The position numbers and the translations under genes are program-made. From Sanguibacter sp. HDW7 (GTDB taxonomy: Bacteria; Actinomycetota; Actinomycetes; Actinomycetales; Cellulomonadaceae), in assembly GCF_011300875.1 (NCBI RefSeq), contig NZ_CP049862.1, forward strand, positions 372,001 through 436,000: a DNA stretch of 64,000 nt, read 5' to 3'. The notes below the pieces were generated by a model. It made no database searches and had not been told where the DNA came from. It worked only from the letters and a program-made list of their open reading frames with translations. Shown here piece after piece: positions 36,085-56,063 of this stretch; the stretch's first letter is position 1; every line of letters begins with the position of its first letter.

Positions 36085-37383
36085 TCAGGCCGCGGGGGTG
36101 GACGGGGTGGCCGGGGAGGGGCGGCGGGCGTGGGCGCGGCTGCGGAACCACAGCAGCAGGCCGCCGATCACGGCCGCCGTGAGCGAGCCGAGGAGCACCG
36201 CGGCCTTCGCCGCGTCCGTCGACGCCGAGCCCGCAGGGAACGAGAGCTCGGCGATGAGCAGGGCGACCGTGAAGCCGATGCCGCCGACGCACGCCACGGC
36301 AATGACGTCGGCCCAGCGCAGCGACTCGTCCAGCCGCGCACGGGTGAGCGTGACGAGCAGCCACGTCGCGGCGACGATGCCGAGTGGCTTGCCGACGACG
36401 AGCCCGAGGAACACTCCCTGCGCGGCGGGCGTCGACGCCGCCGACGCGATGGCCGCGGGGTCGACGGCGACCCCCGCCGCGAACAGTGCGAACACCGGCA
36501 CGGCGAAGCCCGCTGAGACGGGACGCCACCGGTGCTCGTACCGCTCGGCAAGGGAGACGTCCTCGACCGGGGCGTCGTCGGCGCGCGGCCGTCGTTGGCC
36601 TGTCCCGTCCCCGGTGCGCGCGACCGCGGGGACGGTGAGTCCGAGCAGGACGCCCGCGATGGTCGCGTGGACGCCCGAGGCGTGCATGAGCGCCCAGGCC
36701 GCGACGCCCAGAGGGACGAGCAGCCACCACGGGGCGCCACCCCGTCGTCGGACGAGGACGCCGAACACGACGACCGCCGCGAGCGCCGCACCGAGCTTCG
36801 GCAGCGAGAGATCGCCGGCGTAGAAGATCGCGATGACGACGATGCCGAGCAGGTCGTCGACCACCGCGAGGGTGAGGAGGAAGACGCGCAGCGCGGCGGG
36901 CAGGCCGCGGCCGCACACCGTGAGGACGGCGACGGCGAACGCGATGTCGGTCGCGGCCGGGATCGCCCAGCCGTGCGCCTCGCCGCCCGGCTGGAGGTTC
37001 GTGAGGGCGTAGACGAGCGCGGGCACGGCCATGCCGCCGACGGCGGCGAGGATGGGGACGATCGCGGTCGCGGGGCGGCGGAGCTGGCCCGTGACGATCT
37101 CCCGCTTGAGCTCGAGACCGACGACGAGGAAGAAGATCGCGAGCAGCCCGTCGGTCGCCCACCCGGCGAGCGTGAGGTCGAGGTGGAGCGCGGCGGGCCC
37201 GACGCGGACACCGGACAGCGCGGCATAGCTCTCGCGCCAGGGGGAGTTCGCCCACACGAGAGCGACGACCGCCCCGGCGAGGAGCAGGACCGCACCGGTG
37301 CTCTCGTCGCGGAGGGTGTCGGCAAGGTTGCGTCGGCTGCCCGGGACGGGCTCGTCGAGCACGACGGGGCGGTGGTCGGTCAT
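36085..37383 (-). CDS. nhaA: Na+/H+ antiporter NhaA
   Basis: 432 residues with about 11-12 membrane segments. Diagnostic features are GLLAIFFLVVGLELKREIVTGQL (~79-101), IPAATDIAFAVAVL (~141-154) and the ion-binding Asp pair D176-D177 in TLAVVDDLLGI. It exchanges sodium for protons and supports pH and salt homeostasis. A ~35-residue charged insertion (TGDGTGQRRPRADDAPVEDVSLAERYEHRW) lies between helices. The C-terminal tail is short and basic. It is monocistronic; 130 bp separate its start from the minus-strand dehydrogenase gene. Confidence 0.95.
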   Translation of the reverse strand: MTDHRPVVLDEPVPGSRRNLADTLRDESTGAVLLLAGAVVALVWANSPWRESYAALSGVRVGPAALHLDLTLAGWATDGLLAIFFLVVGLELKREIVTGQLRRPATAIVPILAAVGGMAVPALVYALTNLQPGGEAHGWAIPAATDIAFAVAVLTVCGRGLPAALRVFLLTLAVVDDLLGIVVIAIFYAGDLSLPKLGAALAAVVVFGVLVRRRGGAPWWLLVPLGVAAWALMHASGVHATIAGVLLGLTVPAVARTGDGTGQRRPRADDAPVEDVSLAERYEHRWRPVSAGFAVPVFALFAAGVAVDPAAIASAASTPAAQGVFLGLVVGKPLGIVAATWLLVTLTRARLDESLRWADVIAVACVGGIGFTVALLIAELSFPAGSASTDAAKAAVLLGSLTAAVIGGLLLWFRSRAHARRPSPATPSTPAA

Positions 37384-37513: not shown

Positions 37514-38404
37514 TCACACCGTGCGTGGCAGCTCGGCGAGATAGCGCTGGACGACCGAGGTGTCGGCGTCGCCCAGCCCGGCGTCGGTGAGGGCGGTGAA
37601 CGTCGCGCGCAGGACGTCGAGCTGGGGCGTGGACGTGCCCGTGCGCTCGGCCTCGGCCGCCGCGAACCCGAGATCCTTCACCATGAAACGCGCCGCGCCC
37701 GAGGGGGAGTGGTCGTGCGTCGCGAAGCGGTGCGCCTTGACGTCGAGCACGCGGCTGCCCGCGTATCCGGCCCCGAGCAGGTCGAGGAGCCGACCGACGT
37801 CGAGGCCCGACCGCTCCGCGAGGACCGAGGCCTCGCCGAGGGCCTGGACCGTCGCGGCGACGATCATCTGGTTGCACGCCTTGGCGACCTGGCCGGCGCC
37901 GAGCGGCCCGAGATGCTCCGCGCGACCGCACGCCGCGAGGACGTCGAGGGCGGTCCGGGCGTCGTCGGTCGACCCGCCGACCATGATCGACAGCGTCCCG
38001 GCGACGGCTCCCTCCTCGCCTCCCGAGACGGGAGCGTCCACGACGCGGACGGCATCGTCGGTGCTCGCGCGCAGGCGCGCGTCGAGGTTGCGTATGCCGT
38101 CGGGGGAGACGGTCGAGCACACGACGACGAGCAGCCGCCCCGTGACGCCGGCGAGCACGCCGTCCTCGCCGTCGAGGAGCGCCTCGAGGTCGGGGAGGTC
38201 CGGCAGCACGACGACGAGGACGTCGACCGCGGCGGCCAGCTCGCGCGGGGACCCGTGCCAGGTGGCGCCCGCCGCGACGAGCTCGGTGGCGGACGCGGGC
38301 CGACGTGCCCAGACGTGGAGGGCGCCGCGAGCGGCGAGCAGGTGGTGCGCCATCGGCGCGCCCATGACGCCGAGGCCGAGGACCCCGACGACCGGTGCGG
38401 TCAT
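37514..38404 (-). CDS. NAD(P)-dependent beta-hydroxyacid dehydrogenase (HIBADH / tartronate semialdehyde reductase family)
   Basis: 296 residues. Rossmann motif GVLGLGVMGAPMAHHL (~7-22), the family's substrate-binding segment VDAPVSGGEEGAVAGTLSIMVGG (~119-141) and the catalytic lysine in GQVAKACNQMIVAATVQALGEA (~165-187). Members reduce or oxidise 3-hydroxyisobutyrate, tartronate semialdehyde or similar short beta-hydroxyacids. The start overlaps the DUF4862 gene by 4 nt, so both act together. They are divergent from a uronate TRAP transporter, which suggests a role in sugar-acid breakdown. Exact substrate unknown. Confidence 0.85.
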   Translation of the reverse strand: MTAPVVGVLGLGVMGAPMAHHLLAARGALHVWARRPASATELVAAGATWHGSPRELAAAVDVLVVVLPDLPDLEALLDGEDGVLAGVTGRLLVVVCSTVSPDGIRNLDARLRASTDDAVRVVDAPVSGGEEGAVAGTLSIMVGGSTDDARTALDVLAACGRAEHLGPLGAGQVAKACNQMIVAATVQALGEASVLAERSGLDVGRLLDLLGAGYAGSRVLDVKAHRFATHDHSPSGAARFMVKDLGFAAAEAERTGTSTPQLDVLRATFTALTDAGLGDADTSVVQRYLAELPRTV

Positions 38405-39384
38405 GCCCGCTCCGCCGCGACGGTGTCGAGGGAGGCGCGCACGAGGGCGAGGCTTGCGCGGGCGACCGCGAGCCGGCCGGCGACGTCCGTCCCGGGCGCA
38501 GCGGTGACCTTGGCGCCCACGTGCTCGAGGCCGTCCCCGGCGGCGCGCAGCGTCGCGAGGACCTGGTCGCCGTCGAGCAGGCTCGCGGCGCTCGCGGCCA
38601 GCGCGGGGTCCGAGCCGCGCGGGGCGATGTGGGAGTCGTCCCAGGGCTCTCCCCACGGGCTCGCCACGTCGGTGGCGCCCGAGAAGATGAGGCCGCGCAG
38701 GACGCCGGCCGCGGCGGCCGCCGCCGCGTGGCGGGCGGGGGCGGCGGCGTCGCGCGCCTCGATCGCCGAGCGGCCCCAGTTGAGGGTGATGCCGATGCCG
38801 GCCTCGGCGGCGAGGGCGATCTCGTCGTCGATCGACCAGAAGCCCTTCGCGGGGGCCTGGCCGGCGACGAGCGCGTCGCTGTGCTCGAGGGTGAGCGTCG
38901 CGCCCGCGAGGTCGAGGTCGGCGAGGGTCGCGAGCGAGGCGCGCATCGCGTCGAGCGAGCCGGTCGTGCCGCGTGCGGAGGCCTGGGCCGGCGCGGGGGC
39001 GGTGTGGATCTCGACACCGCGGACGCGGCGCCGGCCCGAGAGGTCGGCGAGGCGGCGCGCGAACTCCGCGACCTCGGCGAGGTCGGCGAGGGCTGCGGCG
39101 CGGCCCTCGGGGTCGGAGGAGGAGAGCCCGTAGCGGCCGTCGACGGCGAGCCGCTGCATGGTCCGGGGGATGCAGGTGACGACGAGGTCGATGGCGGGCG
39201 GAAGGGTCGCGGCGACGTGCGCGGGGTCGCACGCGGGGTCGCCCGGGGCGGCGAGAGGGTGCTCGACGGCATCGATGCCCAGGCTGTCGAGCGCCGTGAC
39301 GAAGGTCACGGCGTCGTCGGGGTCCGCGGGCGTGAGCGCGTAGGCGCCGAGCGTGAGGGCGGGGCGTGCGGGCTGCATGGACAT
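38401..39384 (-). CDS. DUF4862 family protein (predicted TIM-barrel, isomerase/epimerase-like)
   Basis: 327 residues from the ATG at 39384, with AGAAGGAG 6 nt upstream. Sequence features include LTLGAYALTPADPDDA, LVVTCIPRTMQRLAVDGRYGLSSSDPEGR, VEIHTAPAP, LTLEHSDAL and GITLNWGRSAIEAR. These acidic and histidine residues at strand ends resemble sugar-phosphate isomerase/epimerase metal sites, but no function is established for the family. It is translationally coupled to the HIBADH-like gene and divergent from the TRAP-kdu operon, sharing a 300-bp control region with IclR-type palindromes. Confidence 0.7.
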   Translation of the reverse strand: MSMQPARPALTLGAYALTPADPDDAVTFVTALDSLGIDAVEHPLAAPGDPACDPAHVAATLPPAIDLVVTCIPRTMQRLAVDGRYGLSSSDPEGRAAALADLAEVAEFARRLADLSGRRRVRGVEIHTAPAPAQASARGTTGSLDAMRASLATLADLDLAGATLTLEHSDALVAGQAPAKGFWSIDDEIALAAEAGIGITLNWGRSAIEARDAAAPARHAAAAAAAGVLRGLIFSGATDVASPWGEPWDDSHIAPRGSDPALAASAASLLDGDQVLATLRAAGDGLEHVGAKVTAAPGTDVAGRLAVARASLALVRASLDTVAAERA

Positions 39385-39503
39385 CGTCGTCTCCTTCTGT
39401 CCGTCGGCTTCGACGGGGGTGTGCGGTGGTGTCTCGTTCCGGTCACGACTTGGCGCGTGCCCGGGTTCTGTGTTGACGGACTGCGGACCGTCTGACTTAC
39501 TTG

Positions 39504-39528
39504 GTTCCGTCACCCGGAACTCAGTTCC
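39504..39528. promoter_or_regulatory. Overlapping IclR-type operator in the divergent uronate control region
   Basis: The 300-bp gap between the DUF4862 and dctP starts contains GTTCCG-TCACC-CGGAAC (39504-39520), an inverted repeat with a 5-bp spacer. It overlaps GGAAC-TCA-GTTCC (39516-39528), so three half-sites lie in tandem. A TATAGA hexamer begins 2 bp further on. A TTGACG hexamer at 39473 could be a -35. The IclR gene at 43486 in the same operon is the likely partner. The rest of the gap shows no gene. Confidence 0.6.
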
Positions 39529-39529
39529 A

Positions 39530-39535
39530 TATAGA
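39530..39535 (+). promoter_or_regulatory. Candidate -10 element of the TRAP-kdu operon
   Basis: TATAGA directly downstream of the overlapping palindromes and about 150 bp upstream of dctP. No well-spaced -35 is seen, as expected for an activated or repressed promoter. Confidence 0.35.
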
Positions 39536-39684
39536 CAACAGTGTGGCACCGGCAGGGACGCCGGCGCACCAGAACATCGACGTTCGTCCCACACGAGACG
39601 ACGACGGCCCACCCCGTCCACGGGCAGGCCTCGTCACCCGCACCCCGCGCCCGCCCCGGCGGGCCCAGCAAGGAGACACCCCTC

Positions 39685-40695
39685 ATGCGACGGAACAAGG
39701 TCGTTTCGCTCTTCGCGGTCGGCGCACTCGCGCTCGGCCTCGCCGCCTGCTCCTCTGACGACAAGGCCGCGGACGGCGGCGCCGGCACCACCACCTTCAA
39801 GGTGGCCTTCAACCAGAACGCCGCCCACCCCCAGGCCAAGGCGCTCGCCGAGATCAGCGACAAGCTCAAGGAGGCCACGGACGGCAAGTACGCCCTCGAG
39901 GTCTTCCACGACGAGCTCCTCGGCTCCCAGGCCGAGACCCTCGAGATGGTCCAGACCGGCACGGTCCAGATGGCCATCGTCGGCGGGTCCCTCCTCGAGA
40001 ACTTCAACCCCGACTTCTCGGTCGTCAACCTTCCCTACCTGTTCGACTCGATCGAGCACCAGATGAAGGTCCTCAACGACCCCGCCATCACCGGCGAGCT
40101 CTACAGCTCCATCGAGGACAAGGGCATCAAGGTCCTCGTCTCGTACCACGCGGGTGTCCGTAACGTCTACACCAAGACCGGCCCGATCACGAAGCCCGAG
40201 GACCTCAAGGGCATGAAGATCCGCGTCATCGGCTCCGACACCAACGTCCGCATGATGGAGCTCATGGGCGGCGTCGGCACCCCGATGGCCCAGGGCGAGG
40301 TCTACACCGCGATCCAGTCCGGCGTCCTCGACGGCGGCGAGAACAACGAGCTCATCTACTCCGACCTCGCCCACGCCGAGATCGCCCCGTACTACGCGTA
40401 CACCAAGCACCTCATGATGCCCGACACCCTCGTCATCAACCCCAAGGTGCTCGCCGACATGGACGAGACCTCCCGCGCGAAGCTCCTCGAGCTCGTCAAC
40501 GCGTCCGTCGACACCGAGGTCAAGCTCTTCGCCGAGGCCGTCACCGACCGCAAGGCCAAGGCCGAGGCCGCCGGCGCGAAGTTCAACGACGTCGACTTCG
40601 ATGCGTTCCGCAACGCCGTCCTCCCGCTCCACCAGGAGCGTCTGACGACGGACGTCACCAAGAAGATCTACGAGCAGATCCAGGCCGCTCGCTGA
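39685..40695 (+). CDS. TRAP transporter solute-binding lipoprotein, DctP type
   Basis: 336 residues. Signal peptide with lipobox LGLAAC (Cys ~21), then the DctP fold: FKVAFNQNAAHPQAKALAEISDKLKEATDGKYALEVFHDELLGSQAETLEMVQTGTVQMAIVG. The conserved arginine that ion-pairs with the substrate carboxylate is in LKGMKIRVIGS. The C-terminal ELIYSDLAHAEIAPYYAYTKHLMMPDTLVIN is typical of uronate-binding TRAP proteins. Lipid anchoring is the Gram-positive solution. It feeds the DctQM permease with an organic or sugar acid, probably a uronate judging from kduI and kduD downstream. Confidence 0.93.
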   Translation: MRRNKVVSLFAVGALALGLAACSSDDKAADGGAGTTTFKVAFNQNAAHPQAKALAEISDKLKEATDGKYALEVFHDELLGSQAETLEMVQTGTVQMAIVGGSLLENFNPDFSVVNLPYLFDSIEHQMKVLNDPAITGELYSSIEDKGIKVLVSYHAGVRNVYTKTGPITKPEDLKGMKIRVIGSDTNVRMMELMGGVGTPMAQGEVYTAIQSGVLDGGENNELIYSDLAHAEIAPYYAYTKHLMMPDTLVINPKVLADMDETSRAKLLELVNASVDTEVKLFAEAVTDRKAKAEAAGAKFNDVDFDAFRNAVLPLHQERLTTDVTKKIYEQIQAAR

Positions 40696-40710
40696 CGCGT
40701 CGGACCCAGC

Positions 40711-40745
40711 GGTCGGCCGTCGACGCAGGACGTCGACGGCCGACC
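40711..40745 (+). terminator. Intercistronic hairpin after dctP
   Basis: A perfect 15-bp stem GGTCGGCCGTCGACG/CGTCGACGGCCGACC with a CAGGA loop, 15 bp after the dctP stop and 20 bp before dctQ. Same place and geometry as the hairpin after the ABC sugar-binding protein gene (26641). Confidence 0.7.
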
Positions 40746-40765
40746 CGCCCGGAAGAAGGCACCCC

Positions 40766-41278
40766 ATGACCCGTACGAAAGCCGTGCTCGACACGGTCCT
40801 GAGGACCATCTGCGTCGCGCTCTTCGCGATCCTCGTCCTCCTCGTCACGTGGCAGGTCATCACCCGCCTCGTGCTCAACTCCCCGAGCATCTGGACCGAG
40901 GAGGCAGCCCGCTACGTGTTCATCTGGCTGAGCCTCATCGGCATCTCCATCGCCACCGGCGAGAAGGCCGACGTCGCGATCGACTTCCTCGTGAGGAAGT
41001 TCCCGGTCGCCGCCCAGCGCTGGATCGAGGTCCTCGCGTACCTCTCCACGCTCTCCTTCGCCGTCATCATCATGATCTGGGGCGGCTGGACCAACGCGAT
41101 GATGACGTGGGACCAGCTCAACCCGGTCCTCCCCGTCAACGCCGGCGTCCTCTACCTCGCGGTGCCCGTCTCCGGGGTGCTGCTCTCCCTGTACCTCATC
41201 TACCACCTGGTCCGCACGCTCTCGCCGAGCTACGCAGGTGTCGAAGAGATCGACCCCGACGACGAGGTGGAGCTGTGA
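40766..41278 (+). CDS. TRAP transporter small permease, DctQ type
   Basis: 170 residues with four membrane segments. The family signature SPSIWTEEAARYVFIWLSLIGISIATGEKADVAIDFLVRKFP (~47-80) is clear. It forms the transporter with the adjoining DctM, whose GTG start overlaps this stop by 4 nt. The C-terminus is strongly acidic (EEIDPDDEVEL). The ribosome site is GGAAGAAGG before the ATG. Confidence 0.93.
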   Translation: MTRTKAVLDTVLRTICVALFAILVLLVTWQVITRLVLNSPSIWTEEAARYVFIWLSLIGISIATGEKADVAIDFLVRKFPVAAQRWIEVLAYLSTLSFAVIIMIWGGWTNAMMTWDQLNPVLPVNAGVLYLAVPVSGVLLSLYLIYHLVRTLSPSYAGVEEIDPDDEVEL

Positions 41279-42585
41279 ACGTCGACCCCGCACTCATCGG
41301 ACTCGTGCTGCTCGGCGGCATGATCCTCCTGCTCGCCATCGGCGCGCCCGTCTCCATCTCGATCGCACTGCCGTCCGCGATCTGCATGATCCTCGTGCTC
41401 GGCTGGGAGAACGGCGTCCTCACGTCCGCCCAGCGCATGTTCAAGGGCGTCGACTCCTTCCCGTTGCTCGCGATCCCCTTCTTCGTGCTGGCCGGGCAGA
41501 TCATGAACAACGGCGGCATCGCCGTGAGACTCATCAACTTCGCCAAGGTCCTCGTCGGGCGCACCCCCGCGCCCCTCACGCAGACCAACGTCGTCGCCAA
41601 CATGCTCTTCGGCGCGATCTCCGGCTCCGCGGTCGCGGCCGCCGCCGCCGTCGGCACGACCATGGCCCCCATGCAGAAGAAGGAGGGCTACGACAAGGCG
41701 TTCTCCGCCGCTGCCAACGTCGCCTCCGCACCCGCCGGCATGCTCATCCCGCCGTCGAACACGCTCATCATCTACGCGCTCGCCTCCGGCGGGACGTCGA
41801 TCGGCGCGCTCTTTATGGCCGGCTACGTGCCCGGCATCCTCTGGGGCCTCGCCTGTGCGGTCGTCGTCGCGTTCTACGCCCGCAAGCACCCCGGGCTGCG
41901 CGCGGCACGCTGGCCCCGCCCGAAGGAGATCCTCGTCGCCTTCGTCCAGGCGCTGCCGTCGCTCACCCTCGTCATCGTCGTCATCGGCGGCATCGTCTGG
42001 GGCAAGTTCACTCCGACCGAGGGCGCGGCCATCGCCGTCGTCTACTCCCTCTTCCTCGCGTTCTGCTACCGCGCGGTGAAGATCAAGGACCTGGCCGGCA
42101 TCCTCTACTCGGCCTGCCGCACGAGCTCCGTCGTCATCTTCCTCATCGGCGTCAGCTCGATCATGGGCTGGATCATGAGCTTCACGAAGATCCCGCAGCT
42201 CATGGCCGAGTCGCTCTTCGGCTGGACGGACTCCAAGGTCATCGTCCTGCTCATCATGATGGTGCTCCTGCTCATCATCGGCATCCCGCTCGACCCCACG
42301 CCGGCGATCCTCATCTTCACGCCGATCTTCCTGCCGATCGCCATGAGCTACGGCATCCACCCCGTGCACTTCGGCATCATGCTCGTCTTCAACCTCTCGA
42401 TCGCGGTGATATCACCACCATCAGCGCCTGTGCTCTTCGTCGGGTCGCAGGTCGCGGGGGCGAAGCTCGAGGCGGTCATCGTGCGACTCATGCCCTTCTT
42501 CCTCACGCTCATCGCGATGCTCTTCATCATCGTGTTCGTCCCCGAGCTGTCGCTGTGGCTGCCGCGGCTCACCGGGATGATCTAG
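41275..42585 (+). CDS. TRAP transporter large permease, DctM type
   Basis: 436 residues starting at a GTG that overlaps dctQ. About 12 membrane helices. Signatures are PLLAIPFFVLAGQIMNNGGIA, ANMLFGAISGSAVAAAAAVGTTMAPMQKKEGY, APAGMLIPPSNTLIIYALASGG and IIGIPLDPTPAILIFTPIFLPIA. It carries solute with a sodium gradient, receiving it from the DctP lipoprotein. Together with the downstream kduI, kduD and 2-hydroxyacid dehydrogenase genes it points to uptake of (unsaturated) uronates. Confidence 0.95.
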   Translation: MNVDPALIGLVLLGGMILLLAIGAPVSISIALPSAICMILVLGWENGVLTSAQRMFKGVDSFPLLAIPFFVLAGQIMNNGGIAVRLINFAKVLVGRTPAPLTQTNVVANMLFGAISGSAVAAAAAVGTTMAPMQKKEGYDKAFSAAANVASAPAGMLIPPSNTLIIYALASGGTSIGALFMAGYVPGILWGLACAVVVAFYARKHPGLRAARWPRPKEILVAFVQALPSLTLVIVVIGGIVWGKFTPTEGAAIAVVYSLFLAFCYRAVKIKDLAGILYSACRTSSVVIFLIGVSSIMGWIMSFTKIPQLMAESLFGWTDSKVIVLLIMMVLLLIIGIPLDPTPAILIFTPIFLPIAMSYGIHPVHFGIMLVFNLSIAVISPPSAPVLFVGSQVAGAKLEAVIVRLMPFFLTLIAMLFIIVFVPELSLWLPRLTGMI

Positions 42586-42616
42586 AACAGCCGCCAAGAC
42601 CTACAAGGAGAACCCC

Positions 42617-43456
42617 ATGGAACAGCGGTACGCCACGAGCCCCGAGCACGTCCCGGGCATGGACACCGACGAGCTGCGCTCGCGCTACCTCGTCGAGGAC
42701 CTCTTCCGCGACGACGAGGTCGGGTCGGTCTACACCCACCACGACCGTGTCGTCCTGCTCGGCATCACGCCGGTCACCCGGGAGATCGACCTGCCGACGT
42801 ACGACGAGATCCGATCGACGTACTTCCTCGAGCACCGCGAGGCGGGGGTCGTCAACGTCGGGGGCGCGGGCACCGTGACGGCCGACGGCGAGACGTACAC
42901 GCTCGCCAAGGGCGCGTGCCTCTACCTCGGTCGTGGCGTCGAGAACGTGACGTTCGCGTCCGTCGACGCCCAGGGCGAGGCGGGCCCCGCCGCGTTCTAC
43001 GTCGTCTCGGCACCGGCCCACACGGCCTACCCGACGACGCTCGTCGAGCCCGGCCAGGGCACGGTGCGTGAGCTGGGCGACCAGCTGACGAGCAACCGTC
43101 GCACGCTCAACCAGTACATCCACGAGAACGGCGTGAAGTCCTGCCAGATCGTCATGGGTGTCACGCAGCTGCACCCGGGCTCGATGTGGAACACGATGCC
43201 CGCGCACACCCACGACCGTCGCATGGAGGCGTACCTCTACTTCGACGTCCCGGCGGACGCGCGCGTCATCCACCTCATGGGTCGTCCTGACGAGACCCGT
43301 CACCTCGTCGTCGCCGACAAGCAGGCGACGATCGCGCCGAGCTGGTCGGTGCACTCCGGGGTCGGGACCTCCGCGTACTCGTTCGTGTGGGCGATGGCCG
43401 GGGAGAATCAGTCGTTCGACGACATGGACGGGTTCCCCGTCACCGAGATGCGCTGA
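42617..43456 (+). CDS. kduI: 5-dehydro-4-deoxy-D-glucuronate isomerase
   Basis: 279 residues, ATG with AAGGAG 8 nt upstream. It closely matches E. coli KduI: REAGVVNVGGAGTVTADGETYTL, LYLGRG, CQIVMGVTQLHPGSMWNTMPAHTHDRRMEAYLYFD (zinc-binding cupin histidines and glutamate, ~180-214) and WSVHSGVGTSAYSFVWAMAGEN. It converts 5-keto-4-deoxyuronate, the spontaneous product of unsaturated uronides from pectin or other polyuronides, into 2,5-diketo-3-deoxygluconate for KduD. It sits between the TRAP genes and the IclR regulator in one operon. Confidence 0.96.
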   Translation: MEQRYATSPEHVPGMDTDELRSRYLVEDLFRDDEVGSVYTHHDRVVLLGITPVTREIDLPTYDEIRSTYFLEHREAGVVNVGGAGTVTADGETYTLAKGACLYLGRGVENVTFASVDAQGEAGPAAFYVVSAPAHTAYPTTLVEPGQGTVRELGDQLTSNRRTLNQYIHENGVKSCQIVMGVTQLHPGSMWNTMPAHTHDRRMEAYLYFDVPADARVIHLMGRPDETRHLVVADKQATIAPSWSVHSGVGTSAYSFVWAMAGENQSFDDMDGFPVTEMR

Positions 43457-43485
43457 CCTGCCCCGACACCCTTCAGGAGACGACC

Positions 43486-44256
43486 ATGACCGAGCAGACG
43501 AGCACGACGGTCGCTGCGAGCGCGAGCGAGAAGACCCTCCTCGTTCTCGAGGCTGCGCTCTCGCACTCCCGGTTCACGGACGTCGTCGAGGCGACCGGGC
43601 TGGCCAAGGCCACCGTCCACCGCATCCTCGGCACGCTGCAGGGGCGGCAGTTCATCCTCGTCGACGGTGACGGGCGCTTCCAACCCGGTCCCACGATCCT
43701 CTCCCTCGCGGGCAGGGCCCTGGAGAACCTCGACATCTCGGCCATCGCACGACCCCACGTCGAGCGGCTCGTCGCCGACGTGCACTGCACGGTGCACGTC
43801 GGCGTCGCAGCCGGCGACGAGGTCGTCTACCTCATCCGTTCGGACTCCGACAAGCCGTACCAGATGCCCTCGCGCGTCGGGCACGCCATCCCCATGCACT
43901 CCTCGGGCATCGGCAAGGTCATCCTCGCCGACCACTCCGACGAGGAGCTCGAGCGTTTCGTCGCCCGTGCGGGGCTCGCCCGTCGCACGGAGCACTCGAT
44001 CACGACGCTCGAGGGCCTGCGTGCCGAGATCGCCGACGTCCGCGCCCTCGGGTACGCCCGCGACCGTGAGGAGAACGTCCCCGGCGTCTCCTGCGTCGCC
44101 GCACCCATCCGTGACCACACCGGGACGGTCCGCTACGGACTGTCCATCTCCACCCTCGCGCTCGAGCACTCCGACGCCCAGATCACCGCGATGGCCCCGC
44201 AGGCCATCGCGACCGCGGACGCGATCTCCGCGGCACTGGGCTTCCAGGGCCGGTAG
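43486..44256 (+). CDS. IclR family regulator of the uronate operon
   Basis: 256 residues. N-terminal winged helix (SEKTLLVLEAALSHSRFTDVVEATGLAKATVHRILGTLQGRQFI, ~14-57) and C-terminal IclR effector domain (CTVHVGVAAGDEVVYLIRSDSDKPYQMPSRVGHAIPMHSSGIGKVILA; VPGVSCVAAPIRD). It is embedded in the operon between kduI and kduD, so it should respond to a pathway intermediate such as 2-keto-3-deoxygluconate, as KdgR does. Likely target: the overlapping palindromes at 39504-39528. Confidence 0.92.
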   Translation: MTEQTSTTVAASASEKTLLVLEAALSHSRFTDVVEATGLAKATVHRILGTLQGRQFILVDGDGRFQPGPTILSLAGRALENLDISAIARPHVERLVADVHCTVHVGVAAGDEVVYLIRSDSDKPYQMPSRVGHAIPMHSSGIGKVILADHSDEELERFVARAGLARRTEHSITTLEGLRAEIADVRALGYARDREENVPGVSCVAAPIRDHTGTVRYGLSISTLALEHSDAQITAMAPQAIATADAISAALGFQGR

Positions 44257-44299
44257 CCCTGCGCGTCGAGCGCGCACCCACAGGAAGAAGCACCCCAGC

Positions 44300-45088
44300 A
44301 TGAGCACCTCCCCCGCACTCTCGTCCCACCTCGCCGACCTCTTCTCGCTCGAGGGCCGCACGGCCGTCGTCACGGGCGCGAACCGCGGCATCGGCCTCGG
44401 CATCGCGACCGCGCTCGCGCAGGCCGGCGCCGACATCGTCGGCGTCTCGGTCGAGATGCCCGACGGGGAGTCCGACGCCCGCACGGCCGTCGAGGCGGCG
44501 GGGCGCACGTTCACGCCGATCGAGTGCGACCTGGGCGACCGCGAGGCGCTCACGGCCCTCGCCGCCGACCTGCGCGCACGCGGGGTCGACATCCTCGTCA
44601 ACAACGCGGGCATCATCAAGCGCACGCCCGCCGCCGAGCACTCCGACGCCGACTTCGACGACGTCATGGACATCAACCTGCGCGCGACGTGGGTCCTGTG
44701 CCGCGAGGTCGGCGCGTCGATGCTCGAGCGCGGCTCGGGCCGCATCGTCAACATCGCCTCGATGCTCTCCTTCCAGGGCGGCATCAACGTCCCCGGCTAC
44801 ACGTCGGCGAAGTCGGCCGTCGCCGGCCTCACGAAGGCCCTCGCGAACGAGTGGGCCGGCCGCGGCGTCAACGTCAACGCCGTCGCCCCCGGCTACGTCG
44901 CGACGGACAACACGGCGCAGCTGCGCGCCGACGCGGACCGTTCGGCCGCGATCCTCGACCGCATCCCGGCGGGCCGCTGGGCGACCCCCGAGGACATCGC
45001 GGGCGCGATCCACTACCTGTGCTCCGGCGCCGCCTCCTACGTCCACGGCGCGATCGTGCCCGTGGACGGCGGCTGGCTCGCCCGCTGA
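44300..45088 (+). CDS. kduD: 2-dehydro-3-deoxy-D-gluconate 5-dehydrogenase
   Basis: 262-residue classical SDR. TGANRGIG cofactor loop (~26-33), NNAG, catalytic Ser-Tyr-Lys in IASMLSFQGGINVPGYTSAKSA, and the KduD-diagnostic tail segments NEWAGRGVNVNAVAPGYVATDNTAQLRADADRSAAILDRIPAGRW and VDGGWLAR. This is near-colinear with E. coli KduD. It reduces 2,5-diketo-3-deoxygluconate to 2-keto-3-deoxygluconate, the substrate of the KdgK encoded at 56747. A second KduD-like SDR closes the operon. Confidence 0.92.
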   Translation: MSTSPALSSHLADLFSLEGRTAVVTGANRGIGLGIATALAQAGADIVGVSVEMPDGESDARTAVEAAGRTFTPIECDLGDREALTALAADLRARGVDILVNNAGIIKRTPAAEHSDADFDDVMDINLRATWVLCREVGASMLERGSGRIVNIASMLSFQGGINVPGYTSAKSAVAGLTKALANEWAGRGVNVNAVAPGYVATDNTAQLRADADRSAAILDRIPAGRWATPEDIAGAIHYLCSGAASYVHGAIVPVDGGWLAR

Positions 45089-45108
45089 GCCCGGCAGGAA
45101 CCTCCGTC

Positions 45109-46122
45109 ATGCGCATCATCACGACCGAGTGCGACCACGACACGTTCGACGCCGAGCAGGCCGTCGCCGACGCCGCGGGTGCCGAGCTCGTCGTCGCCCA
45201 GGCCTTCGACGACGACACGCTCGTCGCCAACTGCCTCGACGCCGACGCGATCCTCGTCCAGTACGCGCAGATCACGGGCGAGGTCATGGACCGCCTGCCG
45301 CGTCTCAAGGCGATCGGCCGGTACGGCGTGGGCGTCGACTCGGTCGACGTCGCCGCCGCGACCGAGCGGGGCATCGCCGTCTGCAACGTGCCCGACTACG
45401 GCACGGAAGCCGTCTCCGACCACGCGATCGCGATGGCGCTGTCCGTCGCCCGGGGCATCCCGCGTCTCGACCGCGGCGTGCGTGCGGGGTCGTTCGACCT
45501 CGTCGCCGTCCGCCCGCTCTACCAGACGCGCGAGCGCGTCTTCGGCGTCCTCGGCCTCGGCCGCATCGGTTCCGCGACCGCCCGCAAGGCGGCCGGCCTC
45601 GGCTACGAGGTCATCGGCTACGACTCGGCCGTGCCCGCCGGCGCGACCGAGCACCACGGCGTGCGCGTCGTGAGCCTCGACGAGCTGCTCCGCCGCTCGC
45701 AGGTGCTCTCCGTGCACACGCCGCTCACCGAGGAGACCCGTGGTCTTGTCGGCGAGGCCGAGATCGCGACCATGCGGGCCGACGCGATCATCGTCAACAC
45801 CGCGCGCGGCGGCATCGTCGACAACGACGCGCTCGTCGCGGCGCTCCGCGAGGGACGCCTCGCGGGTGCGGGCATCGACTGCCACACGACCGAGCCGATC
45901 CCGGCGGAGGACCCGCTGACGACGTTCGACAACGTCGTCCTCACCCCGCACCTCGCCTGGTACTCCGAGGAGTCCTACGAGGAGCTCAAGCGCCGCACCA
46001 TCGCCAACGTCGCGGACGTCGTCGCGGGCACGTACCCGCGCGACATCCTCAACCCCGAGGTCCTCGGGGCCCCGGGCCGCAACGCCGCGTTCGGCACGAC
46101 CCCTGAAGGAGCAGTTCGATGA
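45109..46122 (+). CDS. D-isomer-specific 2-hydroxyacid dehydrogenase, CtBP-like
   Basis: 337 residues. Rossmann motif GVLGLGRIGSATARKAAGLGYEVIGYD (~146-172), catalytic Arg in NTARGGIVDNDAL, Glu in AGIDCHTTEPIPAEDP and His in LTPHLAWYSEESYEEL. The ending WYSEES resembles C-terminal-binding-protein-type dehydrogenases. It probably interconverts a 2-keto acid and a D-2-hydroxy acid within the uronate pathway or a linked glyoxylate/hydroxypyruvate branch. Start ATG at 45109; it overlaps the alcohol dehydrogenase gene by 4 nt. Substrate unknown. Confidence 0.88.
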   Translation: MRIITTECDHDTFDAEQAVADAAGAELVVAQAFDDDTLVANCLDADAILVQYAQITGEVMDRLPRLKAIGRYGVGVDSVDVAAATERGIAVCNVPDYGTEAVSDHAIAMALSVARGIPRLDRGVRAGSFDLVAVRPLYQTRERVFGVLGLGRIGSATARKAAGLGYEVIGYDSAVPAGATEHHGVRVVSLDELLRRSQVLSVHTPLTEETRGLVGEAEIATMRADAIIVNTARGGIVDNDALVAALREGRLAGAGIDCHTTEPIPAEDPLTTFDNVVLTPHLAWYSEESYEELKRRTIANVADVVAGTYPRDILNPEVLGAPGRNAAFGTTPEGAVR

Positions 46123-47153
46123 GCACCATGAGGGCGGCCGTGTGGACGGCCACCGACACCGCCGAGGTCCGCGAGATCCCGCTGCCCGAGGTCCCCGAGG
46201 GCTGGGCCCTCGTGAAGATGGCCTACAACGGCATCTGCGGCACCGACCTCGCGATCTACCACGGCAAGCACCCGCGCGCGCAGCACGGGCTCGTACCGGG
46301 CCACGAGATGTCGGGCTGGATCGTCGAGCCGGGCGCGTCGGGCCTCGCGGAGGGCACGCTCGTCGTCGTCGAGCCGCTCATCACGTGCGGCGAGTGCCGC
46401 GCGTGCCGCTCGGGCGCCGCGCACGTCTGCAACCGGCTGGGCCTCTACGGCATCGACACCCCCGGTGGCATGGCGGAGTACGTCGCGCTGCCGGCCCACA
46501 CGCTCCACGCGGTTCCCGAGGGCGTCGACGCGCGCCTCGCGGCGCTCGTCGAGCCGCTCGCGGTCGCCGTCCACGCGGTCGCGCTGTCCGGCATGGAGCA
46601 GGGCGACACGGTCGCCGTGTTCGGCGCGGGCCCGATCGGCGTCCTCACGGCGCTCGTCGCGCGCGCCGAGGGCGCGGGCCGCGTCGTCATCACGGAGCCG
46701 TCGCCGTGGCGCCGCTCCGTCGCGGAGTCGTTCGGCCTCGACGTCGTGCCCGAGGGCGCGACGATGACCGAGACGCTCCACGCGCTCACGGGCGGCGAGG
46801 GGGCGGACACGACGTTCGACTCCGCGGCGCACCCGTCGGTCGCTGCCGAGCTCACGGACGCGACGCGCGTCCTGGGTCGCATCGTCATCGTCGGCGTCTA
46901 CAAGGAGCCGACGGCGATCAACCTGCGCGACGTGTGCTTCAAGGAGCAGTCGATGGTGGGCGTGCGCGTCTACACGACGCCCGACATCACGCGGGCGATC
47001 GAGCTGCTCGCGTCGGGCGTCCTCGGCCTCGAGAAGTTCCCGACGGCCGCGTACGACCTCGCGGACGTCTCGGCGGCGTTCGACGCCGCGACCTCGGGCG
47101 CGGACGCGCTCAAGGTGCTCGTCACCCCGCTGCAGGACGGAGCCGACCGATGA
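46119..47153 (+). CDS. Zinc-dependent alcohol/polyol dehydrogenase (MDR family)
   Basis: 344 residues. Catalytic zinc ligands in GICGTDLAIYHGKHPRAQHGLVPGHEMSGWI, structural zinc cysteines in CGECRACRSGAAHVC (~88-102), and NAD-binding VAVFGAGPIGVLTALVA (~161-177). Belongs to the threonine/sorbitol/L-idonate dehydrogenase group. Members of this group near kdu genes oxidise sugar acids such as galactonate or idonate at C5. The start overlaps the previous stop and the stop overlaps the next start, so it is in the core of the operon. Substrate is inferred only. Confidence 0.9.
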   Translation: MSTMRAAVWTATDTAEVREIPLPEVPEGWALVKMAYNGICGTDLAIYHGKHPRAQHGLVPGHEMSGWIVEPGASGLAEGTLVVVEPLITCGECRACRSGAAHVCNRLGLYGIDTPGGMAEYVALPAHTLHAVPEGVDARLAALVEPLAVAVHAVALSGMEQGDTVAVFGAGPIGVLTALVARAEGAGRVVITEPSPWRRSVAESFGLDVVPEGATMTETLHALTGGEGADTTFDSAAHPSVAAELTDATRVLGRIVIVGVYKEPTAINLRDVCFKEQSMVGVRVYTTPDITRAIELLASGVLGLEKFPTAAYDLADVSAAFDAATSGADALKVLVTPLQDGADR

Positions 47154-47905
47154 CCAGCATCTTCTCCCTCGAGGGCCGCACCGCGGTCGTCACGGGCGGC
47201 GGCCGGGGCCTGGGCCTCGGCATCTCGAAGGCGCTGCTCGACGCGGGGGCCGACGTCGTCGTCCTGTCGCGCGGGGCAGTGCCCGACGAGCTCGCGGCGC
47301 ACGCGGCGTCCGTGGGTCGCGCGGTCCACCACTACGCGGTCGACCTCGGCGACATGTCCGCGATCGAGTCCGTCGCGGCGGCCGTCCTCGCGGACCACCA
47401 GGTCGACATCCTCGTCAACAACGCCGGCACGCAGGACCGCTACCCGGCGGTCGACTTCCCGATCGACGCCTTCGACGCGGTGCTCGACGTCAACATGCGC
47501 GCTGTCTTCCGCCTCTGCCAGCTCTTCGGCCGGCCGATGCTCGAGCGCGGCTATGGCAAGATCGTCAACGCCGCGTCGCTGCTCACCTTCCAGGGCGGGC
47601 TCAACGTCGTCGCGTACGCGGCGTCGAAGGGTGCCGTCGGTCAGATCACGAAGGCCCTGTGCAACGAGTGGTCGGGCAAGGGCGTCAACGTCAACGCGGT
47701 CGCGCCGGGCTACATGGCCACGGACATGAACGAGGCGCTCCTCGCGGACCCCGTCCGCCTCGAGCAGCTCTCGGTGCGCATCCCCGCGGGCCGCTGGGGC
47801 ACGCCCGAGGACATGGGCGGCGCTGTCGTCTTCCTGTCGTCGCGCGCGTCGGACTACATCCACGGCCAGACCCTGGCGGTCGACGGCGGCTGGCTAGCCC
47901 GCTGA
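47150..47905 (+). CDS. Second KduD-like short-chain dehydrogenase
   Basis: 251 residues. Same architecture as the SDR at 44300: start FSLEGRTAVVTGGGRGLGLGI, active-site segment AASLLTFQGGLNVVAYAASKGA, and tail IPAGRWGTPEDMGGAVVFLSSRASDYIHGQTLAVDGGWLAR. The KduD signature ATNNTQQLR is replaced by ATDMNEALL. It is therefore a paralogue that may act on an epimeric or differently substituted keto-sugar acid. Last gene of the TRAP-kdu operon, translationally coupled to the alcohol dehydrogenase gene. Confidence 0.87.
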   Translation: MTSIFSLEGRTAVVTGGGRGLGLGISKALLDAGADVVVLSRGAVPDELAAHAASVGRAVHHYAVDLGDMSAIESVAAAVLADHQVDILVNNAGTQDRYPAVDFPIDAFDAVLDVNMRAVFRLCQLFGRPMLERGYGKIVNAASLLTFQGGLNVVAYAASKGAVGQITKALCNEWSGKGVNVNAVAPGYMATDMNEALLADPVRLEQLSVRIPAGRWGTPEDMGGAVVFLSSRASDYIHGQTLAVDGGWLAR

Positions 47906-50034: not shown

Positions 50035-50742
50035 TCAGTCGTCGCAGCGCGTCGGCGCAGTGTCGGGGTGCGCGGGGAGCTCGCGCTCCGTCTCCAGGAG
50101 GTGGGCCTGGGTGAGGGTGCGGGCCTCGTCCTGGTTCCCTCGCGACACCGCGTCGAAGACCGACCCGTGCCACGCGTGCGCCCGCGCGTCGGCATCCGGC
50201 ACCGCCTGGCCGCGCCACCTGCGGTGGCGCGTCGTGCGGCCCGCGAGGGCGTCGAGCAGGGCAGAGAGCACGGGGTTGCCCGACCAGCGTGCGAGCGCCC
50301 CGTGGAACGCCATGTCGGCGTCGAGGAACGCCTCGTGGTCGTCGTCGGCCAGGGCCTCGGCGGCGCGTGAGAGCGCCGCCTGCGCGGCCGCCGCGGCGTC
50401 GTCGTCGGACCTGCGCGCGGCCGCTGCGGCGGCCTCACCCTCGAGCAGGCGCCGCACCGCGTGGGTGTCGCGCGCGTGCCCCGCGCCCTGGAGCGCGACG
50501 AGCAGCCCGACGGGTCCGAGCAGCCGCTCGGGTGCGAGGCTCGAGACGTAGGTGCCGTCGCCCTGCCGGACGTCAAGCACGCCGAGGACCGCGAGCGCGC
50601 GCACGCCCTCGCGCAGCGACCCGCGCGAGACCTCGAGGCGATCGGCGAGCTCGGCCTCGACGGGCAGGCGGTCACCCGCGGAGAGCTCGCCGTCGAGGAT
50701 CATGCGCGTGATCGAGTCGACGACGCGGTCGGTGCGTGACAT
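50035..50742 (-). CDS. GntR family regulator, FadR subfamily
   Basis: 235 residues from the ATG at 50742. The winged helix (~1-75) contains ILDGELSAGDRLPVEAELADRLEVSRGSLREGVRALAVLGVLDVRQGDGTYV. The FCD ligand domain (~90-220) has DADMAFHGALARWSGNPVLSALL and AWHGSVFDAVSRGNQDEARTLTQAHL, with Asp/His metal ligands. FadR-type regulators often sense sugar acids. It lies downstream of, and on the same strand as, the L-fuconate dehydratase gene. Palindromes ATCATCTGATGAT in the control region of that gene are its likely target. Confidence 0.9.
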   Translation of the reverse strand: MSRTDRVVDSITRMILDGELSAGDRLPVEAELADRLEVSRGSLREGVRALAVLGVLDVRQGDGTYVSSLAPERLLGPVGLLVALQGAGHARDTHAVRRLLEGEAAAAAARRSDDDAAAAAQAALSRAAEALADDDHEAFLDADMAFHGALARWSGNPVLSALLDALAGRTTRHRRWRGQAVPDADARAHAWHGSVFDAVSRGNQDEARTLTQAHLLETERELPAHPDTAPTRCDD

Positions 50743-50815
50743 GGGTCGATCATCCACGACGGGCTCCTCTCCGGGGTGGGCCGTCCGGGCACGGGCACGG
50801 GAACGGGTGCGCCGC

Positions 50816-50841
50816 CGGCCACGGTGGACGGACCGTGGCCG
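50816..50841. terminator. Hairpin between the fuconate dehydratase and GntR genes
   Basis: Stem CGGCCACGGT/ACCGTGGCCG with a 6-nt loop. A second hairpin, GCCGACGG/CCGTCGGC, lies at 50882-50904, 12 bp after the dehydratase stop. Together they suggest termination or attenuation before the regulator gene. Confidence 0.6.
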
Positions 50842-50881
50842 ACGGCGCGGGGCCACCGTGCGCAGGGACGGCGGCGGGGGA

Positions 50882-50904
50882 GCCGACGGCAGGGATCCGT
50901 CGGC
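50882..50904 (-). terminator. Terminator after the L-fuconate dehydratase gene
   Basis: An 8-bp perfect stem GCCGACGG/CCGTCGGC with a 7-nt loop, 12 bp past the stop codon. Confidence 0.55.
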
Positions 50905-50916
50905 GGGTCGTGCGGG

Positions 50917-52302
50917 TCAGTCGACGAGCGTCGCCGCGACGGACTCTGCGGCGGTGCCCGCCGCGACCGCGGCGCGCGCGGCGTCGGCGTGACGCTCGCT
51001 CCAGTACGTGCCGTCGGGGTAGCTGTAGTCGGCGACCGACGCGGGGTACATCTCGGTCGAGTAGCCGGGCTTCGACGGCAGGCGGTAGCGGGCCCGCTCG
51101 ACGACGACGGGGTCGGTGAAGTGCTCGTGCAGGTGGTCGACGAACTCGGTGACGCGCCCCTCCATGGAGCCGGAGATCGCGACGTAGTCGAGCATCGAGG
51201 CGTGCTGGACCATCTCGCACAGGCCGACCCCGCCCGCGTGCGGGCAGACGGGCTTGCCGAACTTCGCGGCGAGGAGCATGACGGCGACGATCTCGTTCAT
51301 CGAGGCGAGGCGGCCTGCGTCGAGCTGGACGAAGTCGATCGCGTCGGCCTGGAAGAACTGCTTGAACATCACGCGGTTGTGGCAGTGCTCGCCGGTGGCG
51401 ACGCCGACGGGGCCGACGCCCTTCTTGATGGCGGCGTGGCCGAGGACGTCGTCGGGGCTCGTGGGCTCCTCGATCCACAGGAGGTCGAGCTCCTGCATGG
51501 CGTTGACCCAGTCGATCGACTGCTGGACGTCCCACACCTGGTTGGCGTCGATCATGAGGTGGCGGTCGGGGCCGAGGATCTCGCGGGCGATGCGGGCGCG
51601 GCGGATGTCGTGCTCGAGGTCGAGGCCGCACTTGAGCTTGACGTGCTGGTAGCCCTCGTCGACGGCCTCCTGGGCGAGGCGGGCCATCTTCTCGTCGGAG
51701 TAGCCGAGCCAGCCCGCGGACGTCGTGTAGCAGGGGTAGCCGACCTCCTCGAGGTGGGCGATGCGCTCGGCCTTGCCGGACTCCTGGGCGCGGAGGAGCT
51801 CGATGGCCTCCTCGCGCGTGAGGGCGTCGGAGAGGTAGCGCATGTCGGCGATGTCGACGAGCTGCTCGGGGGTCATGTCGGCGAGGAGGCGCCAGACGGG
51901 CTTGCCGGCGAGGCGGCCGGCGAGGTCCCATGCGGCGTTCATGACGGCGGAGAGGGAGAGGTGGACGACGCCCTTCTCCGGGCCGAGCCAGCGCATCTGG
52001 GCGTCGGACGTGAGGTAGCGGTAGGTGCCGCCCATGTCGGCGACCATCTCGGCGACGTCGCGGCCGAGGAGGTGCGCGGCCTGCTGTCGTGCGGCGGAGG
52101 CGACGATGTCGTTGCCGCGGCCGGTCGTGAAGGTGAGGCCGTAGCCGGCGAGGGGGTTGCCGGCGGCGTCGGTGCCGTCGGTGCGCAGGACGACGTAGGC
52201 GGCGGAGTAGTCGCCGTCCTTGTTCATGGCGTCGGAGCCGTCGGCGGTGAGGGAGGTGGGGAAGCGGACGTCGTGGACCTCGACGTCGGTGATGCGAGCC
52301 AT
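50917..52302 (-). CDS. L-fuconate dehydratase (enolase superfamily)
   Basis: 461 residues, near-colinear with Xanthomonas FucD and human ENOSF1: start [71 protein letters not shown]. Catalytic and metal groups are VKLKCG (KxK), [24 protein letters not shown] and [14 protein letters not shown]. It dehydrates L-fuconate to 2-keto-3-deoxy-L-fuconate with magnesium. No L-fucose dehydrogenase or lactonase gene lies nearby. Related acid sugars (L-galactonate, D-arabinonate) may also be substrates. Start ATG 52302 is preceded by GAAGGACACCCC. Confidence 0.9.
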
Positions 52303-52344
52303 GGGGTGTCCTTCGTCGGTGAAGTGGGCTGAGGCGAGCGTAGC

Positions 52345-52359
52345 AATCATCTGATGATT
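52345..52359. promoter_or_regulatory. GntR-type operator upstream of L-fuconate dehydratase
   Basis: Perfect 15-bp palindrome AATCATCTGATGATT, 43 bp before the dehydratase start. It lies in the 195-bp divergent region shared with the D-isomer dehydrogenase. Confidence 0.75.
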
Positions 52360-52406
52360 AAGGGAAGAGGCTCGCCGTGATGCGGCGTTCCGGCGTGGAG
52401 AGGGTC

Positions 52407-52420
52407 TATAGATCTGATGA
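52407..52420 (+). promoter_or_regulatory. Second GntR half-operator overlapping a candidate -10
   Basis: TATAGA (52407-52412), a -10-like hexamer, runs into ATCTGATGA (52412-52420), the same core as in the operator at 52345. The two cores are 63 bp apart, six helical turns. A transcript from here would have a leader of about 80 nt before the AGGAGG site and ATG at 52498. Confidence 0.5.
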
Positions 52421-52497
52421 CTTCTCGCGTAGGCTCGCCCATGTTCCGCTCACCGCCCTGGACGTTCCGGGCAGCGGACCGCGCGAGGAGGCACGGG

Positions 52498-53529: not shown

Positions 53530-53599
53530 CCCCGCACGGGCGTCCCCGCGTATCGTGGGGGCGCCCGCCCGTCAGCAGCCCGACACCCCTGGAGAGACC

Positions 53600-54361: not shown

Positions 54362-54433
54362 GCTGCCCGCATTCTCCCAGGCGCGGCTGGTATGTTCGGC
54401 GCGATCCGCCGACGCCTCGACCTCGGAGCCCGC

Positions 54434-55915: not shown

Positions 55916-55949
55916 ACGACCGATCCCCTGACTGACAGGGTGACGTGGA

Positions 55950-55979: not shown

Positions 55980-55995
55980 TTCCATGTCACCCTTG

Positions 55996-56031: not shown

Positions 56032-56063
56032 TGGCAACGAAGCCGTTGCCGGAAGGACGGGAC

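Follow-up and report, generated by a model that had tools for sequence, protein, structure and literature searches.

What does a member of the DUF4862 family do in the breakdown of sugar acids, and does its position opposite a uronate operon mark a pathway that has escaped description? The question is raised by a divergent locus in Sanguibacter sp. HDW7 (contig NZ_CP049862.1, positions 372,001 to 436,000; the 64-kb stretch is hereafter the window), whose genome is a single contig of 3.35 Mb. One arm encodes a tripartite ATP-independent periplasmic (TRAP) transporter, the isomerase KduI, an IclR-family regulator, the dehydrogenase KduD, and three further oxidoreductases; the other encodes DUF4862 and a dehydrogenase of the 3-hydroxyisobutyrate dehydrogenase type (HIBADH). 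An initial annotation had read the two arms as the window's best candidate for an undescribed uronate pathway. Its genes, divergent layout, common control region, and predicted fold all stood up to analysis, while the pathway itself gained only partial support, as DUF4862 is not specific to uronates and the core of the locus is ordinary. We propose tentatively, at somewhat less than an even chance, that DUF4862 is a cytoplasmic TIM-barrel openase (anomerase) of alpha-keto sugar acids, with HIBADH an alternative reductase and the three additional dehydrogenases a separable module. In the papers searched, we found none that names DUF4862 or assigns it a function.

The evidence that carries this proposal lies in the company that DUF4862 keeps. 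We assembled 118 distinct loci, not a random sample, from 47 genomes of the source organism's own taxonomic family, the best 80 of 125 confirmed stretches obtained with the scan pattern NWGRSAIE, 14 gammaproteobacterial genomes, one plasmid, and one Escherichia coli genome, with duplicates removed. Among them, 32 contain kduI, 26 are sialic-acid (nan) loci, six contain yiaK (yia loci), and 54 show none of these contexts; nan loci were recognized by two or more of NanA, NanE, NagA, NagB, sialidase, and mutarotase, or by NanE plus another. The nan and yia contexts rule out a uronate-specific role, and an added uronate branch with DUF4862 as its marker finds no support in this distribution. Within the family its link to uronate genes survives; outside the family, the gene lies mostly away from them. 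DUF4862 occurs in 14 of the 394 genomes of the sampled gammaproteobacterial order, and a tblastn search of 72,556 plasmid records gave one match, in a sialic-acid locus of Pseudoalteromonas; sialidase genes adjoin DUF4862 both on this plasmid and in the Occultella loci. A quick DUF4862 tree implies at least five context changes for kdu, 11 for nan, and one for yia, of which three, seven, and one, respectively, are forced by well-supported branches, and the conserved residues remain unchanged throughout.

These residues are P130, H168, D170, K180, N202, W203, R205, S206, S235, G236, D250, and H252, identical in all 118 sequences and mostly situated at putative catalytic strand ends; E167 is kept in 117 of the 118, and at E41 and K292 no aligned row deviates (114 and 116 rows, respectively). 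As the same set recurs across the kdu, nan, and yia contexts, one reaction on several substrates is suggested, and we infer that a single activity on alpha-keto sugar acids is the best reading of this span of contexts.

The initial guess of a TIM barrel was borne out for the window protein by AlphaFold2 (predicted local distance difference test, pLDDT, 95.4), and the top Foldseek matches are D-tagatose 3-epimerase, L-ribulose 3-epimerase, L-rhamnose isomerase, and UlaE (E ~1e-8 to 1e-7, template modeling score 0.5-0.7, 12-17% identity), with MbnB also among the nearest. Xylose-isomerase-like epimerases carry four metal ligands, E-D-H-E, at the ends of strands 5-8. By strand order, without superposition, the corresponding positions in DUF4862 are E167-N202-S235-K292. 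The metal site therefore appears not to be kept in the predicted structure, a point against the ordinary epimerase role first suggested; a metal-dependent epimerase was set aside on these differing strand-end residues. The kinship with xylose-isomerase-like barrels is thus one of fold, without the metal ligand set and without a significant sequence match: a profile search against D-tagatose 3-epimerase was weak (E 0.05), hhalign against SgbU/UlaE found no match with a shallow SgbU alignment, and a phmmer search for epimerase or isomerase relatives found none up to E 1. A Pfam scan at E 0.001 returned PF16154 only, with no match to the DUF386 family, PF04074.

N-Acetylneuraminate (Neu5Ac), 2,3-diketogulonate, 5-keto-4-deoxyuronate (DKI), 2-keto-3-deoxygluconate (KDG), and the ulosonic acids are alpha-keto acids that are mostly cyclic or hydrated in water. 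It is because the substrates of all these contexts share this property that an openase comes into consideration. DUF4862 would speed ring opening and anomer exchange of such acids, namely the cyclic hemiketals or hydrates of DKI at this locus, Neu5Ac in nan loci, and 2,3-diketogulonate in yia loci, and would pass the ring-opened keto form on to the enzyme that follows, as the unrelated YhcH/NanQ (DUF386) does for Neu5Ac. YhcH/NanQ is described as a Zn-containing Neu5Ac anomerase, or "openase"; which form of Neu5Ac the next enzyme takes was a question answered only in 2021 with YhcH, and the authors of that study expect more such enzymes (PMC8141875). For 4-deoxy-L-erythro-5-hexoseulose uronate (DEH), a study of its reduction describes mainly cyclic hydrated hemiacetals in solution and leaves open which form its reductase takes (PMC8778563). 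The two families resemble each other in nan and yia operon context and, on the proposed reading, in alpha-keto sugar acids as substrates and in cytoplasmic location. They differ in that DUF386 is an unrelated Zn protein, whereas DUF4862 is PF16154 and a TIM barrel by prediction, so that the proposed likeness is one of function. A family with one unchanging residue set would then follow this substrate class from sialic-acid operons to those for uronate and ascorbate.

In a broader and more speculative form, to which we give less credence than to the reading of this locus, DUF4862 would constitute a novel family of TIM-barrel enzymes for ring opening ("ulosonate openases"), general for alpha-keto sugar acids and including the enterobacterial YiaX1. 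In many sialic-acid operons its members would stand in for DUF386, the Zn protein; they would open ketouronate hydrates in TRAP-kdu loci, do the same for 2,3-diketogulonate where ascorbate operons hold them, and perhaps set the anomer for the synthesis of cytidine monophosphate-linked ulosonates. The xylose-isomerase-type barrel would have lost the metal chemistry and retained ring opening alone. The YiaX1 connection is drawn from gene order. In locus L185, DUF4862 lies between yiaL and a major facilitator superfamily (MFS) gene, upstream of lyxK, as does yiaX1 in the operon yiaKLX1X2PQRS (order yiaK-L-X1-X2-P), and by this position DUF4862 should be YiaX1, which the available description terms a "chemotaxis-like protein" without giving a function (PMC4324149). 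DUF4862 is a presence/absence gene of the yia operon, found in 1050 of 5426 complete E. coli genomes: it sits between yiaL and yiaM in strain AR_0017 and was not found at that place in the MG1655 yia operon. The nan/fim region was discarded as the home of the E. coli gene, as it is not there in MG1655. If the proposal is true, it provides the first function for DUF4862, a gene carried by about a fifth of complete E. coli genomes.

The distribution of DUF386 bears directly on replacement. None of the 26 nan-type DUF4862 loci contains it (tblastn, two queries, 120 stretches, in which only the six yia loci matched), and it is absent from 20 of the 22 genomes with nan-linked DUF4862, two of which have it. 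In the sampled gammaproteobacterial order, DUF386 is present in 70 of the 74 NanE genomes that lack DUF4862, and lies within 3.1 kb of nanE in at least 20 of those 70. These counts refer to 82 genomes with NanE at E < 1e-50, out of 213 at E up to 0.001; 84 genomes stood over the NanE cut-off, and G602 and G539 (~1e-6) were dropped.

Several observations weigh against the openase proposal or against simple replacement. DUF386 is present in three of the eight gammaproteobacterial genomes whose DUF4862 is nan-linked, though in none of them within the nan locus (3/8 vs. 70/74, Fisher p 0.0002, kinship ignored). All six yia loci hold DUF386 (YiaL) together with DUF4862, which argues against a plain exchange of one for the other. 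A Corynebacterium glutamicum control matches NanE and has neither DUF386 nor DUF4862, and the absence of DUF386 from the 16 actinobacteria of the 22 may therefore reflect lineage. Approximately four fifths of E. coli genomes, MG1655 included, are without DUF4862, which is thus dispensable there. The 54 loci that fit none of the kdu, nan, and yia contexts count likewise, as do four Paraglaciecola copies with housekeeping neighbors (topA and astB, for example). Finally, that DKI rather than plain glucuronate is the substrate class at the present locus is itself something that we infer.

Some unassigned loci do have sugar-acid neighbors. Their 148 neighbor genes include four KDPG aldolases and two PfkB kinases; the aldolases are in L096, L105 (barely above cut-off), L124, and L130, the last two being close kin in which a KDG kinase and a KDPG aldolase stand beside DUF4862. 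In L111 and L126, DUF4862 adjoins a cytidylyltransferase (PseF/KdsB-like) within polysaccharide biosynthesis clusters; that of L126 is fused to a cupin, has pseudaminate and 3-deoxy-D-manno-octulosonate (Kdo) transferases as its nearest relatives, below cut-offs, and has an AroB-like gene nearby. L144 places FAA hydrolase, short-chain dehydrogenase/reductase (SDR), and DHDPS genes around DUF4862. Others follow no pattern, with adenosine deaminase in Marinomonas and SpoU methylases in six members. One record, titled Sphaerisporangium cinnabarinum ATCC 31213 (L133), carries a DUF4862 nearly equal to that of Cellulosimicrobium and is probably mislabeled.

At the Sanguibacter locus itself, the TRAP transporter would import a cyclic hexuronate or its keto or unsaturated relative, KduI and KduD would turn DKI into KDG, and the IclR repressor would control both arms through one divergent operator. 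Family matches and synteny back the import, KduI/KduD, and IclR portion of this scheme; the substrate is assigned by likeness. The window holds the only match to PF01081 (KDPG aldolase) in the source genome, 8 kb downstream of the kdu operon; among the kduI loci from 20 genomes without DUF4862, eda lies within the fetched stretch in four. Two GH88 genes (PF07470, 282 and 52 bits) lie outside the window. With the aldolase and a KDG-kinase-type gene nearby and GH88 elsewhere, the core is the ordinary uronate-to-KDPG route, and as far as gene content and synteny tell, the locus is a well-conserved, ordinary uronate catabolic island. It shares with the KdgR/IclR-controlled kduI-kduD route the KduI and KduD equivalogs, an IclR regulator, and the aldolase and kinase-type genes, and differs from it in TRAP uptake, an IclR gene within the operon, the divergent DUF4862-HIBADH arm, and the trio of a 2-hydroxyacid dehydrogenase (2HADH), a Zn-dependent dehydrogenase (ZnADH), and a second KduD-like SDR. 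The main text of a survey of kdu/dhu clusters mentions neither TRAP nor DUF4862 (PMC12838403). The stronger GH88 gene (C1:2079429-2080472) clusters with ATP-binding cassette (ABC) transporter and SDR genes, and in two relatives (L202 and L212) kduI sits in a cluster of this GH88/ABC-transporter/SDR type.

The solute-binding protein DctP narrows the ligand. Its nearest solved chain is 4n91 (model pLDDT 76, Foldseek E 6e-30), which is described as a D-glucuronate-binding protein (PMC7660916), and the alignment shows N43, Q44, E77, R159, R180, N220, and D247 to be shared with 4n91; all seven are also invariant across 16 relatives. These binding residues were transferred from the STM3169 numbering of the same source by spacing and motif, with the Glu spacing off by five. 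The likeness to 4n91 and the kept residues suggest a hexuronate or something hexuronate-shaped, a resemblance by which glucuronate, unsaturated uronate, and DKI cannot be told apart as the imported ligand.

One alternative is unlikely, if the best placed of those considered: plain D-glucuronate would be imported and handled by KduI and KduD in the way reported for E. coli, with the trio taking over the remainder and DUF4862 assisting as a mutarotase of the aldehyde form. The DctP residues match the D-glucuronate set, and E. coli KduI is reported to facilitate the breakdown of glucuronate and galacturonate (PMC3578941); the nan and yia contexts, however, indicate keto acids rather than aldoses. 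Ranking behind it, and improbable, is a hydratase of cyclic enol-ether sugar acids, an analogue of KdgF that would convert 4,5-unsaturated uronate to DKI and 2,3-didehydro-Neu5Ac to Neu5Ac. Both substrates have the C=C(COO-)-O-ring motif, and the GH88 genes of the source genome and the sialidase genes of the Occultella and Pseudoalteromonas loci are consistent with such a role. Yet the 2,3-diketogulonate (yia) and KDG-type contexts involve no such alkene, and E. coli YjhC is described as already making Neu5Ac from the 2,3-ene form (PMC7315737).

The fold keeps a further possibility in view, to which we assign a lower place again and little probability, namely that DUF4862 is an isomerase or epimerase through which some special, non-standard uronate enters kdu breakdown. 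Its barrel is nearest to epimerases and isomerases, the weak D-tagatose 3-epimerase profile match points the same way, and the linkage to kduI inside its own family agrees. Against this stand the conserved residue set that the nan and yia loci share with it, the replacement of the metal ligands that strand order suggests, and the chemistry of epimerization at C3, which is inapplicable where position 3 is deoxy, as in Neu5Ac and KDG. Least likely of all is a lactonase or repair enzyme that hydrolyzes lactones or other by-products of sugar acids. The acids of all contexts can lactonize, the ascorbate-derived ones of the yia operon included, but the conserved residues were not recognized as a known hydrolase motif, and the cytidylyltransferase neighbors do not call for a lactonase. 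An openase of alpha-keto sugar acids, for all its tentativeness, remains our preferred reading.

Within the taxonomic family, DUF4862 occurs in 47 of 221 genomes (48 copies) and KduI above cut-off in 100, a list that leaves out genome G213 (below cut-off); 38 genomes have both, nine DUF4862 only, 62 KduI only, and 112 neither. The co-occurrence first put forward for testing was found here, with kduI in 38 of the 47 DUF4862 genomes vs. 62 of the 174 others (Fisher p 4e-8, kinship ignored), and 31 of the 48 copies lie within 12 kb of kduI. We fetched 29 kdu loci of 19 kb with both kduI and DUF4862 above set scores, some of which reach contig ends, so that counts are lower bounds: DctP and DctM occur in 28 and IclR in 29, whereas HIBADH occurs in 12, an adjoining NhaA gene in 17, and the complete set of 2HADH, ZnADH, and SDR in 18. 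Among 20 of the 62 kduI genomes without DUF4862, three have TRAP genes, 12 ABC permeases, and five neither, and the trio is present in three of the 20 kduI loci. DUF4862 accordingly accompanies kdu loci of the TRAP type, and the presence of HIBADH and of the trio varies. By this distribution they are separable parts rather than one branch, contrary to the idea that four dehydrogenases and DUF4862 form a unit. The trio probably, though this is a guess, serves related aldonates or ketoaldonates: 2HADH matches chains of phosphoglycerate dehydrogenase, glyoxylate reductase, and 2-ketogluconate reductase, ZnADH those of threonine dehydrogenase, RspB, and L-idonate 5-dehydrogenase, and the second SDR those of KduD and gluconate 5-dehydrogenase. 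In L035, a Flavimobilis relative, two tandem NhaA genes stand beside HIBADH, compared with one in the window.

HIBADH may act as an alternative one-step reductase, taking opened DKI/DEH directly to KDG. This analogy is drawn because A-type DEH reductases belong to the 3-hydroxyisobutyrate dehydrogenase family: the A-type dehR genes of alginate degraders are reported to encode 3-hydroxyisobutyrate dehydrogenase (PMC7874173), and VsRed-1 is described as a beta-hydroxyacid dehydrogenase (beta-HAD) acting as a DEH reductase (PMC8778563). The window gene is of the same superfamily (PF03446 and PF14833); it reaches no NCBIfam equivalog and is likened to VsRed-1 by family only. Its nearest solved chains are other beta-hydroxyacid dehydrogenases, and with its TIGR01505 score under cut-off no specific activity is assigned.

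That both arms answer to one control region, as first claimed, gained support. The palindrome GGAACTCAGTTCC in the DUF4862-DctP intergenic region (39516-39528) occurs once in the window against 0.02 expected, and at two places in the whole source genome; the other (C1:557519) was rejected as a regulon partner, since it lies inside a 1859-aa open reading frame (ORF) and is probably there by chance. In relatives from the family, all 28 regions compared between DUF4862 and DctP contain the site [GA]GAACN3GTTC[CT] (mononucleotide shuffles, mean 0.01 of 28); they come from related genomes and are not 28 independent cases; 25 have GGAACN3GTTCC and three the variant starting with A, and the remaining ~519 kb of those loci hold four further sites. 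A second palindrome, TTCCG-N5-CGGAA, read off the sequence, overlaps the first in the window and recurs in many relatives. In E. coli, the yia operon, kduID, and eda are reported to be controlled by PlaR (YiaJ), a repressor of the IclR family for which ATnTGAAACnnnGTTCAnTT is given as the binding site (PMC6958661). Likeness to the PlaR site supports control of both arms by IclR, short of proof.

Every named gene of the divergent locus is an intact ORF with a family match, DctQ being called by its place and its similarity to relatives, and the layout, conserved among relatives, is no local accident (Table 1); the genes and their arrangement were as annotated, although the range first given, 39385-47905, omits both minus-strand genes. 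The plus-strand operon (39685-47905) is tightly packed, with overlapping joints at DctQ/DctM, 2HADH/ZnADH, and ZnADH/SDR. On the minus strand (37514-39384), DUF4862 and HIBADH overlap by four bases, and the NhaA gene (36085-37383) follows HIBADH on the far side. KduD passes its equivalog cut-off by a very narrow margin.

Table 1. Features of the divergent uronate locus and associated genes, in window coordinates.
Feature	Position	Strand	Basis
HIBADH-type (beta-hydroxyacid) dehydrogenase	37514-38404	-	PF03446 + PF14833; best NCBIfam TIGR01505, 200.6 bits (cut-off 340.75)
DUF4862 protein	38401-39384	-	PF16154, 292 bits; predicted TIM barrel
Operator-like element	39507-39528	none	TTCCG-N5-CGGAA overlapping GGAAC-TCA-GTTCC (39516-39528)
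DctP, TRAP solute-binding lipoprotein, hexuronate-binding type	39685-40695	+	PF03480, 214 bits; nearest solved chain 4n91
DctQ, TRAP small permease	40766-41278	+	Position; tblastn matches in relatives, located between DctP and DctM
DctM, TRAP large permease	41275-42585	+	PF06808, 375 bits; TIGR00786, 396 bits
KduI, 5-keto-4-deoxyuronate isomerase	42617-43456	+	NF002091, 403 bits (cut-off 250)
IclR-family regulator, KdgR/BhcR-like	43486-44256	+	PF01614 + PF09339; NF011671 (KdgR), 138 bits (below cut-off 275)
KduD, 2-dehydro-3-deoxy-D-gluconate 5-dehydrogenase	44300-45088	+	TIGR01832, 339.1 bits (cut-off 338.85)
D-2-hydroxyacid dehydrogenase (2HADH, module gene 1)	45109-46122	+	PF02826 + PF00389
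Zn-dependent dehydrogenase (ZnADH, module gene 2)	46119-47153	+	PF08240 + PF00107
Second KduD-like SDR (module gene 3)	47150-47905	+	TIGR01832, 293.6 bits (under cut-off)
KDPG aldolase (Eda)	56031-56705	+	PF01081, 230 bits; NF004325, 249 bits (above cut-off 241)
PfkB-type kinase, proposed KDG kinase (KdgK)	56747-57871	+	NF041633, 265 bits, and NF041332, 146 bits (both below cut-off); start codon picked by eye

Downstream in the window, a second sugar-acid cluster (50035-57871) comprises a GntR-FCD regulator, an L-fuconate dehydratase-like enolase, another 2-hydroxyacid dehydrogenase, an IclR gene, a 507-aa ORF, eda, and the PfkB kinase. The ORF (54392-55915, between IclR and eda) has coding-like codon composition and gave no Pfam match even at E 5. 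The enolase (50917-52350) was excluded from the kdu route: L-fuconate dehydratases are the chains closest to it (1yey, 610 bits), and it is a separate sugar-acid gene; a mannonate-dehydratase/RspA link was likewise dropped, the ManD model scoring 42 bits only. The PfkB-type kinase also resembles the KDG-kinase-like gene of locus L130.

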